Shown piece after piece: positions 47,499 through 52,760 of a stretch of 64,000 nt of DNA. Location: positions 1-64,000 of the forward strand of contig JAFRPL010000029.1 of assembly GCA_017429165.1 (NCBI GenBank), in the 5' to 3' direction. Source of the stretch: Clostridia bacterium. GTDB taxonomy: Bacteria; Bacillota; Clostridia; Oscillospirales; CAG-382. The notes under the pieces are model-generated. The model saw only the letters and a list, made by a program, of their open reading frames with translations, was not told the DNA's origin and did not search any database. Made by a program: the position numbers and the translations under genes. Positions within the stretch are counted from its first letter, which is position 1; every line of letters begins with the position of its first letter.

Positions 47499-48527
47499 TT
47501 ATTGTTTTTGCGCCAGCTCCAGCAGACGTGTTTTTTCTTTTTGCGCCGCTTTCAGCACGGTGTCTTCGGTCAGACCCCATTCGTTCCGGATATTGTCTAT
47601 TATACGGTCGTAGGTTTTTGCCGCGGAAGCGCAGTCGCCGGAGATCTCATGGATATCCGCTATCGCGTACAGCGCGTCGGTAAACCGCGGACGGCGGACG
47701 TCGTTTTCGTAGGCGGTCTCGTATAATCCTATCGCTTTGGAGTAATCGCTTTTCTTTGCGTAATACTGCGCCGCCTCGAAAAGCGCGTCGTCTTTGAGCG
47801 GGAACTCTTCGAGCATATCTTCTATTATCTTATCCGCTGTCTTTTCGTCAAAACGCGCCAGCGCTATGTGCGCGCGGTAAACGCACACCATTACGGGGTT
47901 GCCGTTCAGCATTTCGTAACGGGCGAGAGCCTGCTCGGCTTCGTCGGCGCGGTGGTCGGCGATGAGGTTGTCTATGAGATACATATACGAAAGCCGGCTT
48001 TCCGGCGCGTCTTTCAGCACGCTGCGGTAGAATTCGATCGCGCGTGAATGATTGGCGAAATTCCAGTCCCACACGGCGTGGCCTTCGGCCATGTTCAGCA
48101 TCCACTGGCATTCCTTTTCGTCCGGAGCCATCCGTATGGATTCCTTGGCGTAACGCTTTACCTTCTGTGCGTCGGAACCCATGCGGTGCCGGTAAAGGTA
48201 CGCTGCCAGATACGCGGCGCGCTTTTTATACGCCGCGTCGCCGAGCAGCGGCTGAAGATAGTCTTCGTATTCCCTGAACACGTCCTGCGGAAGTTCGCTT
48301 TCGTTGTCCATGCGGTTAAGGCGCTGCTCTACCGAAAGGTCGAACAGATCGTCTATGCTCACGCCGAAAACCTCGGCTATCTTCGGCAGCAGCGAAATAT
48401 CGGGCATGGCGACCGAATTTTCCCATTTGGAAACCGACTGCGGCGCAACGCCCAGCTTTTCCGCGAGCTGTTCCTGCGTGAATCTGGCTTTGGCGCGGAG
48501 CGCTTTGATCTTGTTTGAAAGTTCCAT
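47499..48527 (-). CDS. XRE-family HTH regulator with TPR-like domain
   Basis: A 342-residue protein: helix-turn-helix at residues 1-65 (FTQEQLAEKLGVAPQSVSKWENSVAMPDISLLPKIAEVFGV) and a helical repeat part from about 80 with TPR-like units (for example SRAIEFYRSVLKDAPESRLSYMYLIDNL and YSKAIGLYETAYENDVRRPRFTDALYAIADI). This plan resembles RRNPP-type regulators that bind short peptides, though no peptide gene is visible beside it. GGAGG lies 8 bases before the ATG. The nearby genes are unrelated metabolic or unknown ones, so the target is not evident. Confidence 0.88.
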   Translation of the reverse strand: MELSNKIKALRAKARFTQEQLAEKLGVAPQSVSKWENSVAMPDISLLPKIAEVFGVSIDDLFDLSVEQRLNRMDNESELPQDVFREYEDYLQPLLGDAAYKKRAAYLAAYLYRHRMGSDAQKVKRYAKESIRMAPDEKECQWMLNMAEGHAVWDWNFANHSRAIEFYRSVLKDAPESRLSYMYLIDNLIADHRADEAEQALARYEMLNGNPVMVCVYRAHIALARFDEKTADKIIEDMLEEFPLKDDALFEAAQYYAKKSDYSKAIGLYETAYENDVRRPRFTDALYAIADIHEISGDCASAAKTYDRIIDNIRNEWGLTEDTVLKAAQKEKTRLLELAQKQ

Positions 48528-49918: not shown

Positions 49919-49995
49919 TGGCGTGCCTTGGGGGATTCGAACCCTCGACCTACTGCTTAGAAGGCAGTTGCTCTATCCTGCTGAGCTAAAGGCAC
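49919..49995 (-). tRNA. tRNA-Arg (anticodon TCT)
   Basis: On the minus strand a full cloverleaf of 77 bases starts GTGCCTT and ends AAGGCAC-G-CCA, so the CCA is encoded. The D-arm has TAGCTCAGCAGGATAGAGCA, the anticodon stem-loop ACTGC-CTTCTAA-GCAGT gives TCT, which reads AGA/AGG arginine codons, and the T-arm has GAGGGTTCGAATCCCCC. A terminator follows at once. Confidence 0.96.
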
Positions 49996-50054
49996 ATATG
50001 GTTTTTGGCGGCGGGTGATACGGAAAGCGGGCGCAAAAAGTGATTTACGGCAAG

Positions 50055-50078
50055 AAAAAGCAGCGACATCTGCTTTTT
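50055..50078 (-). terminator. Terminator after tRNA-Gly
   Basis: The perfect stem AAAAAGCAG (50055-50063) with CTGCTTTTT (50070-50078) has a 6-base loop and lies 17 bases past the tRNA-Gly 3' end on the minus strand. Confidence 0.85.
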
Positions 50079-50095
50079 CTTACCGTCGTCGCTTA

Positions 50096-50169
50096 TGGAG
50101 CGGGTGACGGGAATCGGACCCGCACGGCCAGCTTGGAAGGCTGGAATTCTGCCATTGAACTACACCCGC
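50096..50169 (-). tRNA. tRNA-Gly (anticodon TCC)
   Basis: A 74-base cloverleaf on the minus strand starts GCGGGTG and ends CACCCGC-T-CCA with encoded CCA. The anticodon arm CCAGC-CTTCCAA-GCTGG gives TCC (glycine, GGA/GGG), and the T-arm is GCGGGTCCGATTCCCGT. It lies 62 bases downstream of the rpsT stop. Confidence 0.96.
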
Positions 50170-50231
50170 GGGCAAAACGCGCTGCTGTTTTGCAAGCAGC
50201 GCCGTAAAAGCTTGACCTTTGGGAGTATAAA

Positions 50232-50495
50232 TTACGCCAGGGAATTGAGCATAAGAGCGAACTGGCTCTTTTTGCGCGCGGCGTTGTTGGCGTGAAGGAT
50301 CCCTTTTGCAACGGATTTATCGACCATGGAAACCGCCTTGGTATAGGCCTGTTCCGCGGCCGCCTTGTCGCCGGCTTCGACTGCGAGCTTGAACTTCTTT
50401 ATGGAAGTTTTGAGCAGGGACTTATACATTTTGTTCTGCAGGGCCTTGGTCTCGCTGACTTTAACTCTCTTCTTTGCGGATTTGATGTTAGGCAT
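50232..50495 (-). CDS. rpsT: 30S ribosomal protein S20
   Basis: An 87-residue primary 16S rRNA-binding protein of the small subunit. The start MPNIKSAKKRVKVSETKALQNK is the S20 signature, and the helical rest (AEQAYTKAVSMVDKSVAKGILHANNAARKKSQFALMLNSLA) is complete. AGGAGGAG lies 7 bases before the ATG, and a good promoter is seen upstream. The stop is 62 bases before tRNA-Gly, so read-through into the tRNA genes is possible. Confidence 0.96.
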   Translation of the reverse strand: MPNIKSAKKRVKVSETKALQNKMYKSLLKTSIKKFKLAVEAGDKAAAEQAYTKAVSMVDKSVAKGILHANNAARKKSQFALMLNSLA

Positions 50496-50713: not shown

Positions 50714-52189
50714 TTATTGGATATTCGATACGGTTCCCGTGAACAGCGGCACGCCGTTGTTGACGACCATAAATACGAACGGCTTATCGAGCGTAAAATC
50801 ATAATCCTTATGGTCTTCCGCGTAACCGTTGGCAATGCGTATTCCGGTAAACGCCGCGCCTTCCACGCCTTCTTTATCGGCTTTGAAGCGCGCCGCGTGG
50901 ATGATTTGATTGACAAATATGTCGTCGTCTGTCAGTTCCGAAAAATCCGCTTTTGAAGAGATCGTACAATCGGTAACGCCGAGCGCGTACAGTATATCTA
51001 TGATCGATTCGTTGAAATCGACGTCAAAATCCGGCATCCTTACCGTAACGTCGTACGTTTTACCGGTCTTTTCCGAACCGATGAAAGAAATGAGATCGGA
51101 CTTAACAACGTCTTCCGTGCTTTTGCCGTAATCGGGCAGGAAGAACCACATTCTGTTGCCGTCCGAAAGCGTGTCGTGGAACGCGGTGAACCCGTCGCCG
51201 TAATAGATCTCGCTTGTGAACGATTTTTTATTAAAAACGCAGTCTGTTCTGCCGTCCGTACCCTTGAACACGCCCTCTTCGGTTTCTCTGTATTGTATAG
51301 CCCATTTAACTTTGTAATAAAGAGTAGACGCGAGCACAGCGCGGGTATCGTCGCTGATATCGAGCGCATTGATGAAACCGTCGAGCAGACCGCAGGTTTG
51401 ATCCGAAAGCCATTGTTTCAGCGCTTTCTTATATTCATCGCTTGCAAAATTGCCGGTGAAAGTCGAAGCATAGTGATCGTTTTTCAGTATTTCGACGCAG
51501 TTTTCCTTGACAGGCATATCGCTTGAAAGCCATACGGAATTACCGAGCAGCGATTTGCCGAATTCGTCGTCGCGGCTGTTATACAGCCATATGATTTTTG
51601 ATTGCTCGCGGAGTTCTTCTATACTTGACACGCCTATGATATCGAGTATCTGCTTGCGCGACGTTCCGCTCGTGCATTCCGCAAGCATCGAAAGCGCCAT
51701 ATAGATATTGACCGGCGAAACGACCGCGCTTTCGCGGCCTTCGAGCAGTTTTTGCGTCAGCTTGTCAAAGAAGGCTCCAAGCTCTGCCGCGTTTTGCCGG
51801 TATGTTTTCTGAACTTTGCGGTATTCGCGTCCGTAAACGTTCGAAGCAGTAAAAGAAACGTCCGCAAGGCACATATAAAGCGCGCCGGAATAATCGCCCG
51901 CGGTGCCCTTGAAGGGCTCTACGTTTGGCCTTGTCGTGTGCGGGTCTGAACTCGTCGTGTGCGGATCCGTCACAGCGGCTTTTTTTATGCTGAAGGTGAC
52001 CGCAAGCGCCGTAACGACGAGCGTTAACGCCAGGACGGCGGCTATAAGAGATCTTCTGTTTATAAAAGCGTCTTTCCTTCTTCGCTCTGAGACAGCCGGA
52101 TCTTTTTGCGTTCCGCCGATAATATTGTCGATAAGCGTTTCGGTGATATGAGCCGTGGCGTCGTATAAGTATTTGTTTTTATCGTCCAT
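50714..52189 (-). CDS. Membrane-tethered serpin
   Basis: A 491-residue protein: cytosolic N-terminus (1-46, RRRKD near the membrane), one helix (about 47-67), a TDPHTT/SDPHTT spacer, then a full serpin fold (about 115-490). Serpin landmarks are VSPVNIYMALSMLAECTSGTSRKQI (155-181), YYKVKWAIQY, the hinge KEGVEGAAFTG (439-449) and KPFVFMVVNNGVPLFTGTV (469-487). The hinge has Gly at P15 and small residues at P12-P10 but Phe at P9, and the loop is about four residues longer than in antitrypsin, so P1 (somewhere in RIANGY) cannot be fixed. It would trap an extracellular protease. Its start overlaps the HTH/sigma-4 regulator gene by 11 bases with GGAGG upstream, like an anti-sigma pair. Confidence 0.93.
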   Translation of the reverse strand: MDDKNKYLYDATAHITETLIDNIIGGTQKDPAVSERRRKDAFINRRSLIAAVLALTLVVTALAVTFSIKKAAVTDPHTTSSDPHTTRPNVEPFKGTAGDYSGALYMCLADVSFTASNVYGREYRKVQKTYRQNAAELGAFFDKLTQKLLEGRESAVVSPVNIYMALSMLAECTSGTSRKQILDIIGVSSIEELREQSKIIWLYNSRDDEFGKSLLGNSVWLSSDMPVKENCVEILKNDHYASTFTGNFASDEYKKALKQWLSDQTCGLLDGFINALDISDDTRAVLASTLYYKVKWAIQYRETEEGVFKGTDGRTDCVFNKKSFTSEIYYGDGFTAFHDTLSDGNRMWFFLPDYGKSTEDVVKSDLISFIGSEKTGKTYDVTVRMPDFDVDFNESIIDILYALGVTDCTISSKADFSELTDDDIFVNQIIHAARFKADKEGVEGAAFTGIRIANGYAEDHKDYDFTLDKPFVFMVVNNGVPLFTGTVSNIQ

Positions 52190-52637
52190 CGTTTTGCCTC
52201 CGTATCATTTTTATCAGTTTTTTTCGCGATTTTGAAAGGCGGCTGCGGATGTGGTTTTCGCGCATGCCTTTCTTTTCCGAAATGGCGGCGATACTCTCGG
52301 TCAGGTAGTACCTGCGCACAAATATCTCAGCTTCGTCTATGCCCGCCTTGCTCAAAAACTCGTTCAGCACTTTGGTGAATTCGGATTCAGGCATTTGTAT
52401 CCCGTCGGGAATGCATTCCGAAAGCTCTTCAAAAACATAAACGTCTTTTTCAATTATCACGTCCGGTTCTACTCCGAAAACTTCAGCGATCCTTTCGATC
52501 GCCGAATAGTCCGGACGTCTGACTCCGGTTTCCCATTTTGAAACAAGGTCTTTCGACACAAACAGCATCCCTGCGAGAGTTTCCTGCGTCCATCTGCGTT
52601 CATGCCGCAGCTGCGCTATGACGCTCCCAACGTTCAC
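52179..52637 (-). CDS. Hybrid regulator: XRE helix-turn-helix plus sigma region 4-like domain
   Basis: A 152-residue protein with two DNA-binding parts. Residues 5-60 are a Cro/C1-type domain (WTQETLAGMLFVSKDLVSKWETGVRRPDYSAIERIAEVFGV). Residues 86-146 resemble sigma-70 region 4 (IDEAEIFVRRYYLTESIAAIS ... MRENHIRSRLSKSRKKLIKMI). Region 2 is absent, so it is not a complete sigma factor. The start is a GTG at 52637 with AGGAGG 7 bases before it. The next gene, a membrane serpin, begins inside its last codons. I infer that it controls, or is controlled by, the serpin; target promoters are unknown. Confidence 0.88.
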   Translation of the reverse strand: MNVGSVIAQLRHERRWTQETLAGMLFVSKDLVSKWETGVRRPDYSAIERIAEVFGVEPDVIIEKDVYVFEELSECIPDGIQMPESEFTKVLNEFLSKAGIDEAEIFVRRYYLTESIAAISEKKGMRENHIRSRLSKSRKKLIKMIRRQNDGR

Positions 52638-52760
52638 GTCGTTTTCCTCCTCTTGCTTTTCTGATAATATTCTAACAGATAGTTAGCGGTATGTAAAGGG
52701 ACGATTCGCACCCTTTATTCAGCGCTTTATGCAAAGAAATATGTTCGCCGTTACGTTTTT

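Follow-up and report, generated by a model that had tools for sequence, protein, structure and literature searches.

Two overlapping genes in the window, the 64,000-nucleotide stretch of DNA from a gut-type Clostridia bacterium that was analysed here, would form a two-protein transmembrane transcription switch, in which a membrane-tethered serpin acts as the sensor of an anti-sigma-like receptor. A regulatory link between the DNA-binding regulator and its membrane partner is very likely, because such genes are paired regularly, tail and regulator are exchanged together and a candidate operator is present. As to the input, we favour with modest confidence a reading in which the serpin head does the sensing and the signal is a protease, because of the analogy to RsiV and the variability of the reactive loop.

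The regulator and its membrane partner

The gene pair and the parts of the serpin protein are located as follows:

52179..52637, (-) strand: XRE/sigma-4 regulator of 152 aa with a GTG start (ORF and Pfam)
50714..52189, (-) strand: membrane-tethered serpin of 491 aa with an ATG start, the partner of the regulator (ORF and Pfam)
52052..52189, (-) strand: charged cytosolic tail, residues 1-46 of the serpin protein (sequence)
51986..52051, (-) strand: single transmembrane helix, residues about 47-68, a hydrophobic stretch (topology)
50723..51763, (-) strand: serpin domain, residues 143-489 (Pfam Serpin, 1.6e-48)

The two genes share an overlap of 11 bp, and a GGAGG ribosome site lies immediately 5' of both start codons. 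The N-terminal part of the regulator, residues 4-60, matched the Pfam families HTH_31 (3.7e-13) and HTH_3 (1.6e-10), i.e. it contains the HTH_3-type domain of XRE/Cro-CI regulators. Residues 101-141 matched Sigma70_r4_2 (5.4e-6), and residues 68-149 constitute a linker and a sigma-4-like (σ4) domain by homology to the corresponding region of the class B ECF sigma factors described below. According to Pfam region 2 is absent and the XRE domain occupies its place. ECF sigma factors have both sigma-2 and sigma-4; with sigma-4 alone the regulator is not one of them.

Residues 1-30 of the serpin's tail bear the motif LYDAxxxIxxxLID, which is common to other partners, and a linker separates the helix from the serpin domain. 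The pair fits the layout of membrane anti-sigma factors, being co-operonic with a single-pass, N-in protein that has a short cytosolic domain beside a sigma-type gene. Searches of the serpin protein with Pfam and NCBIfam gave no match to a catalogued anti-sigma domain. The sequence-only reading of this DNA had placed an 11-base overlap between the GTG at 52637 and the ATG at 52189, had described the regulator as an XRE domain joined to sigma region 4 without region 2 and had assigned about 46 cytosolic residues, one helix and an extracellular serpin to the partner. The coordinates confirmed the first point, Pfam upheld the second, and topology and Pfam agreed with the third. It made no mention of three features described below, namely the candidate operator with its promoter, the five paralogous pairs of this genome and the joint exchange of tail and regulator among relatives. 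The AlphaFold models, with a mean pLDDT of 43 for the serpin (6 rows) and 62 for the regulator (2 rows), were discarded as too poor.

Directly downstream of the serpin gene and on the same strand are genes for tRNA-Arg (tct), tRNA-Gly (tcc) and an S20-like ribosomal protein (50232-50495), together covering 49919-50495 of the window. Further downstream, again on this strand, a second XRE regulator with TPR repeats is encoded at 47499-48527.

Pairing of tethered serpins with sigma-type genes

The genome of the window (2.16 Mb) contains five further full-length relatives of the regulator with 37-49% identity. Each is followed at once, with an overlap of 1-8 bp, by a partner whose tail is related (MNxxxLYDAxxxIDExL) and which has one helix and an ectodomain of another kind. 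In the whole family 11 XRE/σ4 regulators were found, all 11 with an adjacent tail partner and with varied ectodomains; a twelfth match of that search was an ECF sigma. The genome of the window has a single serpin gene. The serpin is thus one exchangeable head on a standard receptor, because the partners of the paralogs share the tail and differ in the ectodomain. In one such partner (L200, G000:C37) the ectodomain weakly matched SurA_N (E 0.0036), and this protein is possibly a folding-stress sensor on the same type of tail. Another one showed a weak match to DUF4179 over the helix (E 0.017).

Serpins were present in 40 of 63 genomes of the family and in 184 of 394 genomes of the order. We surveyed the loci of 250 distinct serpins from the family, the order and the phylum Bacillota, which were taken from the higher-scoring matches and are not a random draw. 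A sigma-type gene was located directly upstream of 37 out of 39 serpins with a cytosolic tail and helix, usually with an overlap of 4 bp, whereas among about 200 lipoprotein or secreted serpins with room upstream a single one followed a sigma-type gene. This lone case (L248) has an ECF remnant before the serpin and was scored against the association. The difference corresponds to a Fisher p of about 7e-40 when relatedness is ignored, and the 39 tethered serpins were split from the others by hand from their N-termini as wrong start codons confound automatic classes. The exceptions among the tethered serpins were L190 and L271; the clearest is L190:2761-4122, which has no sigma-type gene nearby. 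Mapped on a tree of 118 serpin rows, the tethered state underwent at least 13 changes, 8 of which are forced by well-supported branches. Because of these label changes, at least 8 to 13 in number, we concluded that the pairing of sigma-type genes with serpins was built repeatedly. The window pair itself is retained in the second species of the genus (L055/L093).

The sequence-only reading had proposed to check whether the gene upstream of such serpins is regularly an HTH/sigma-4 hybrid. Tethered serpins do regularly follow a sigma-type gene, but there are at least three classes of regulator, the hybrid being only one of them, and the majority of tethered serpins are paired with complete ECF sigma factors. 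It had also named a lack of conserved pairing in relatives as evidence against a switch. The pairing is conserved, and the tail class tracks the regulator class.

Three regulator classes were distinguished. Class A comprises the XRE/σ4 proteins of the window's genus; classes B and C are ECF sigmas, of the type MQDxxIVELYxxRDE and MDNGxSSYRRFLDGD, respectively. The ECF partners of the other tethered serpins matched both sigma-2 and sigma-4. The tails go with the class of the regulator. Those of classes A and B are homologous over the 28 residues that precede the helix (a score of 37.7 in hhalign versus a maximum of 13.0 in 150 column-permuted controls), and comparison of the tails revealed no homology of class C to either of them. 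The regulators of classes A and B share only the linker and σ4 (window residues 68-149; P 1.5e-19). Because the tails are homologous while the common part of the regulators is limited to linker and σ4, the tail probably grips σ4, and we consider a contact of the tail with linker/σ4 likely from this comparison. The cytosolic tail would hold the regulator via its sigma-4-like part in the manner of an anti-sigma factor. The simplest reading of the sequences is that class A arose when an XRE domain replaced σ2.

Among named relatives, the closest to the window serpin are those of L093 (UBA1206, the sister species), of L094 and of the L095 cluster. L094, from water-buffalo rumen, encodes the nearest serpin relative outside the genus with 59% best-segment identity, and the rumen cluster L095 is 55% identical to the window serpin. 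In both L094 and L095 the tethered serpin has a class-B-like tail and lies behind a true ECF sigma. In L095 the gene order is ECF sigma, tethered serpin and then two lipoprotein serpins, and the latter are nearer to the window serpin (55-56%) than is the tethered serpin of L095 itself (43%). These relationships argue that the serpin head on the one hand and the tail with its regulator on the other are separate modules: judged from the sequences, tail and regulator move as one while the serpin head is kept.

Overlapping genes are common in compact bacterial genomes, and the two genes could be chance neighbours without a functional link. Given the contrast of 37/39 to 1/~200, the repeated fusions and the joint exchange of tail and regulator, this explanation is extremely improbable and we rejected it on the evidence of the survey.

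In the operons of L009, L018, L027, L065, L066 and L067 a class B ECF sigma is followed by a serpin-less membrane protein of the tail type, in which an acidic or proline-rich linker leads to a small domain at the C-terminus; one or two lipoprotein serpins come next. Some tethered serpins carry extra regions: in L024 the serpin is followed by a bacterial Ig-like domain, and L060 and L069 have long unassigned stretches.

Candidate operator, promoter and candidate regulon

Two elements were identified just upstream of the regulator gene:

52692..52716, (-) strand: candidate operator AAAGGGTGCGAATCGTCCCTTTACA, the inverted repeat AAAGGG-N10-CCCTTT running into the -35 box TTTACA (motif)
52669..52697, (-) strand: promoter TTTACA-N17-TAGAAT with an extended -10 (TG) and the -10 box TAGAAT at 52674-52669

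The regulator would bind this inverted repeat at the -35 box of its own promoter. The operator fits the genome-wide motif AAGGGTGCGNNTTGTMCCTTKACA with 1 mismatch. All XRE/σ4 operons have the element GTMBCTTTACW with a -10 box 16-17 bases on, and most have the fuller element [GA]NTTTGT[AC]CCTTTAC[AT]. A pattern search with AAGGGTGCGNNTTGTMCCTTKACA at up to 3 mismatches yielded 7 matches in the genome of the window and 0 in a reversed control. Three of them lie upstream of XRE/σ4 operons, the other four upstream of genes for lipoproteins or secreted proteins. A second type of half-site, TGTAACGA, was found at two more operons, which are those of the other regulator subgroup.

Across the 63 genomes matches with 0-2 mismatches were confined to G000, the genome of the window, and G045. 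G047, which has one regulator, contained three matches with 3 mismatches, while G046, a member of the same genus without a regulator, had none. Elsewhere in this set two matches with 3 mismatches occurred, which equals the control level. Because the operator is located at the regulators' own promoters and is largely confined to regulator-bearing genomes, the pattern supports autoregulation together with a small envelope regulon. The regulator and its paralogs may thus bind the operators of a few secreted or lipoprotein genes as well. For the upstream regions of class B and C operons no shared promoter element stood out in simple k-mer counts.

The four promoters with an operator that do not drive regulators are L287 (G000:C8:146851), L288 (C14:82078), L289 (C30:521) and L291 (C8:26089). 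The genes behind them are mostly without a known family; that of L289 resembles an ORF beside L036 (KEYTGK..SVxLSPF).

The serpin head as a candidate sensor

Serpins are known as irreversible inhibitors. The window serpin is a member of PF00079 with 166.3 bits against a cut-off of 27, covers profile positions 9-369 of 370 and aligns with the chains of conserpin and tengpin. Its loop is located as follows:

50807..50875, (-) strand: hinge and variable reactive-centre loop KEGVEGAAFTGIRIANGYAEDHK, residues 439-461

The hinge reads G15 V14 E13 G12 A11 A10 F9 T8, with an unusual V at P14 and an unusual F at P9. The sequence GVEGAA(F/Y)T does not vary across the window clade; its inward-pointing residues P12, P10 and P8 are small, and the adjoining loop is the most variable part. 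Judged by sequence, the hinge of this clade is compatible with insertion, as in an inhibitory serpin.

The serpin genes of the two species in the genus differ by 9 non-synonymous and 2 synonymous changes of codons, and 3 of the 9 are located in the loop. At loop codons 449, 451 and 452 there were 4 non-synonymous and 0 synonymous differences to the sister species. In six close pairs of tethered serpins the loop differed at 25 of 79 sites (31.6%) versus 178 of 2164 (8.2%) elsewhere, an odds ratio of 5.2. The corresponding odds ratio of ten secreted pairs was 2.0; pairs in this comparison were few and picked automatically, and several secreted pairs were left out for want of clear loop boundaries.

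The tethered serpin may instead be an effector, i.e. an on-demand shield of the cell surface against proteases, with the tail exerting a simple negative feedback where more serpin leaves less free regulator. In L009, L018 and L065-L067 an ECF sigma and a tail protein that lacks a serpin are followed by a lipoprotein serpin as a separate protein, and L095 has its two additional lipoprotein serpins; as plain lipoproteins in ECF operons serpins may be product rather than input. Furthermore, a two-component system of Bifidobacterium breve governs a serpin that is its product and is induced by protease (PMC8012564). Yet effector serpins in these bacteria are normally lipoproteins without a tail, a repeated head-to-tail fusion is unnecessary for a shield, and loop variation, measured against the remainder of the domain, is faster in tethered than in secreted serpins. 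We regard this alternative as rather unlikely, though as the main rival.

In the favoured reading, with the serpin as sensor, a protease would attack the reactive loop or get trapped by it, and the serpin would change its shape irreversibly. Membrane proteases would then probably degrade the partner, so that the tail is altered or removed. The genome encodes M50 membrane proteases, which could carry out the second cut of the partner. With its tail contact changed, the regulator would alter expression of the operon and the small regulon. The sequence-only reading had already suggested that the serpin could be a bait whose attack by a protease frees the regulator, and such a step would fit both the fast-evolving loop and the RsiV precedent. 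We infer the operator binding, the tail-sigma-4 contact, the protease signal and the direction of control. It is conceivable, and we suggest it tentatively, that the suicide reaction of a serpin with its target protease acts as a one-shot transcription signal via the anti-sigma-like tail, and that this device was built repeatedly, with at least three regulator classes, its bait loop being changed to match new proteases.

A sigma-type regulator and a membrane partner with differing ectodomains is a known kind of system, exemplified by RsiV and RsgI. RsiV is an anti-sigma factor the ectodomain of which binds the active site of lysozyme, whereupon stepwise regulated proteolysis frees the sigma factor (PMC5014341). 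As with SigV/RsiV of Bacillus subtilis and others, a sigma-type gene is followed here by a single-pass membrane partner with a cytosolic N-tail; the RsiV ectodomain binds the active site of a hostile enzyme like an inhibitor (PMC5014341). However, this ectodomain is DUF4163/DUF3298 and not a serpin, a relationship of the tails is undetectable by Pfam, and the window regulator has an XRE domain and no sigma-2. The SigI/RsgI systems of Clostridium thermocellum and relatives likewise comprise many regulator-partner pairs in one genome with ectodomains that differ per input (PMC3413522, PMC12484212, PMC12203970). There, the inputs are carbohydrate-binding modules and enzymes, the sigma and tail families differ from those seen here, and no serpin ectodomain was found among the RsgI family in the papers searched. 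Expression of the B. breve serpin operon, from a gut bacterium too, responds to proteases (PMC8012564) as we propose for the window pair; yet in B. breve sensing is the task of a two-component system and the serpin is what gets produced, while here the serpin is fused to a regulator-linked membrane tail. In BlaR1/BlaI a sensor reacts covalently with the threat and signals across the membrane to a DNA-binding regulator (PMC9834060), a course that may apply here. In contrast, BlaR1 has its own metalloprotease domain and senses beta-lactams, and a sigma-type domain is absent from that system.

The literature searched contained neither a serpin input nor an XRE/σ4 hybrid in the place of a sigma factor nor the repeated fusion. 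Searches for serpins with sigma or anti-sigma factors returned no serpin-sensor system and those for XRE fused to region 4 returned nothing, absence being no proof in either case. If the proposal is true, a suicide reaction as a transmembrane transcription input would be a new role for the serpin superfamily and a new route for gut bacteria to read proteases of host or competitors. The parts are defined, comprising the tail, the σ4-bearing regulator, the operator and the fast-evolving loop that should set specificity, and class A shows a σ4 domain grafted onto an XRE domain with the membrane partner kept.

Finally, the serpin fold may be a non-inhibitory binding domain on the tail that senses another ligand, such as a peptide, mucin or the state of the envelope. 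The partners of the paralogs carry unrelated ectodomains, so that an ectodomain needs merely to bind something, a few tethered serpins have a degraded hinge, and the window hinge has its V at P14 and F at P9. On the other hand, an invariant hinge with small residues at P12, P10 and P8 beside the most variable loop is what an inhibitory bait loop predicts for the window clade, and for this serpin we consider a non-inhibitory head rather improbable. The tethered serpins with a degraded hinge are L059, L061 and L062:2883-4487. Judged by their sequences these heads have probably lost inhibition, and because of them a working inhibitor appears not always to be needed.
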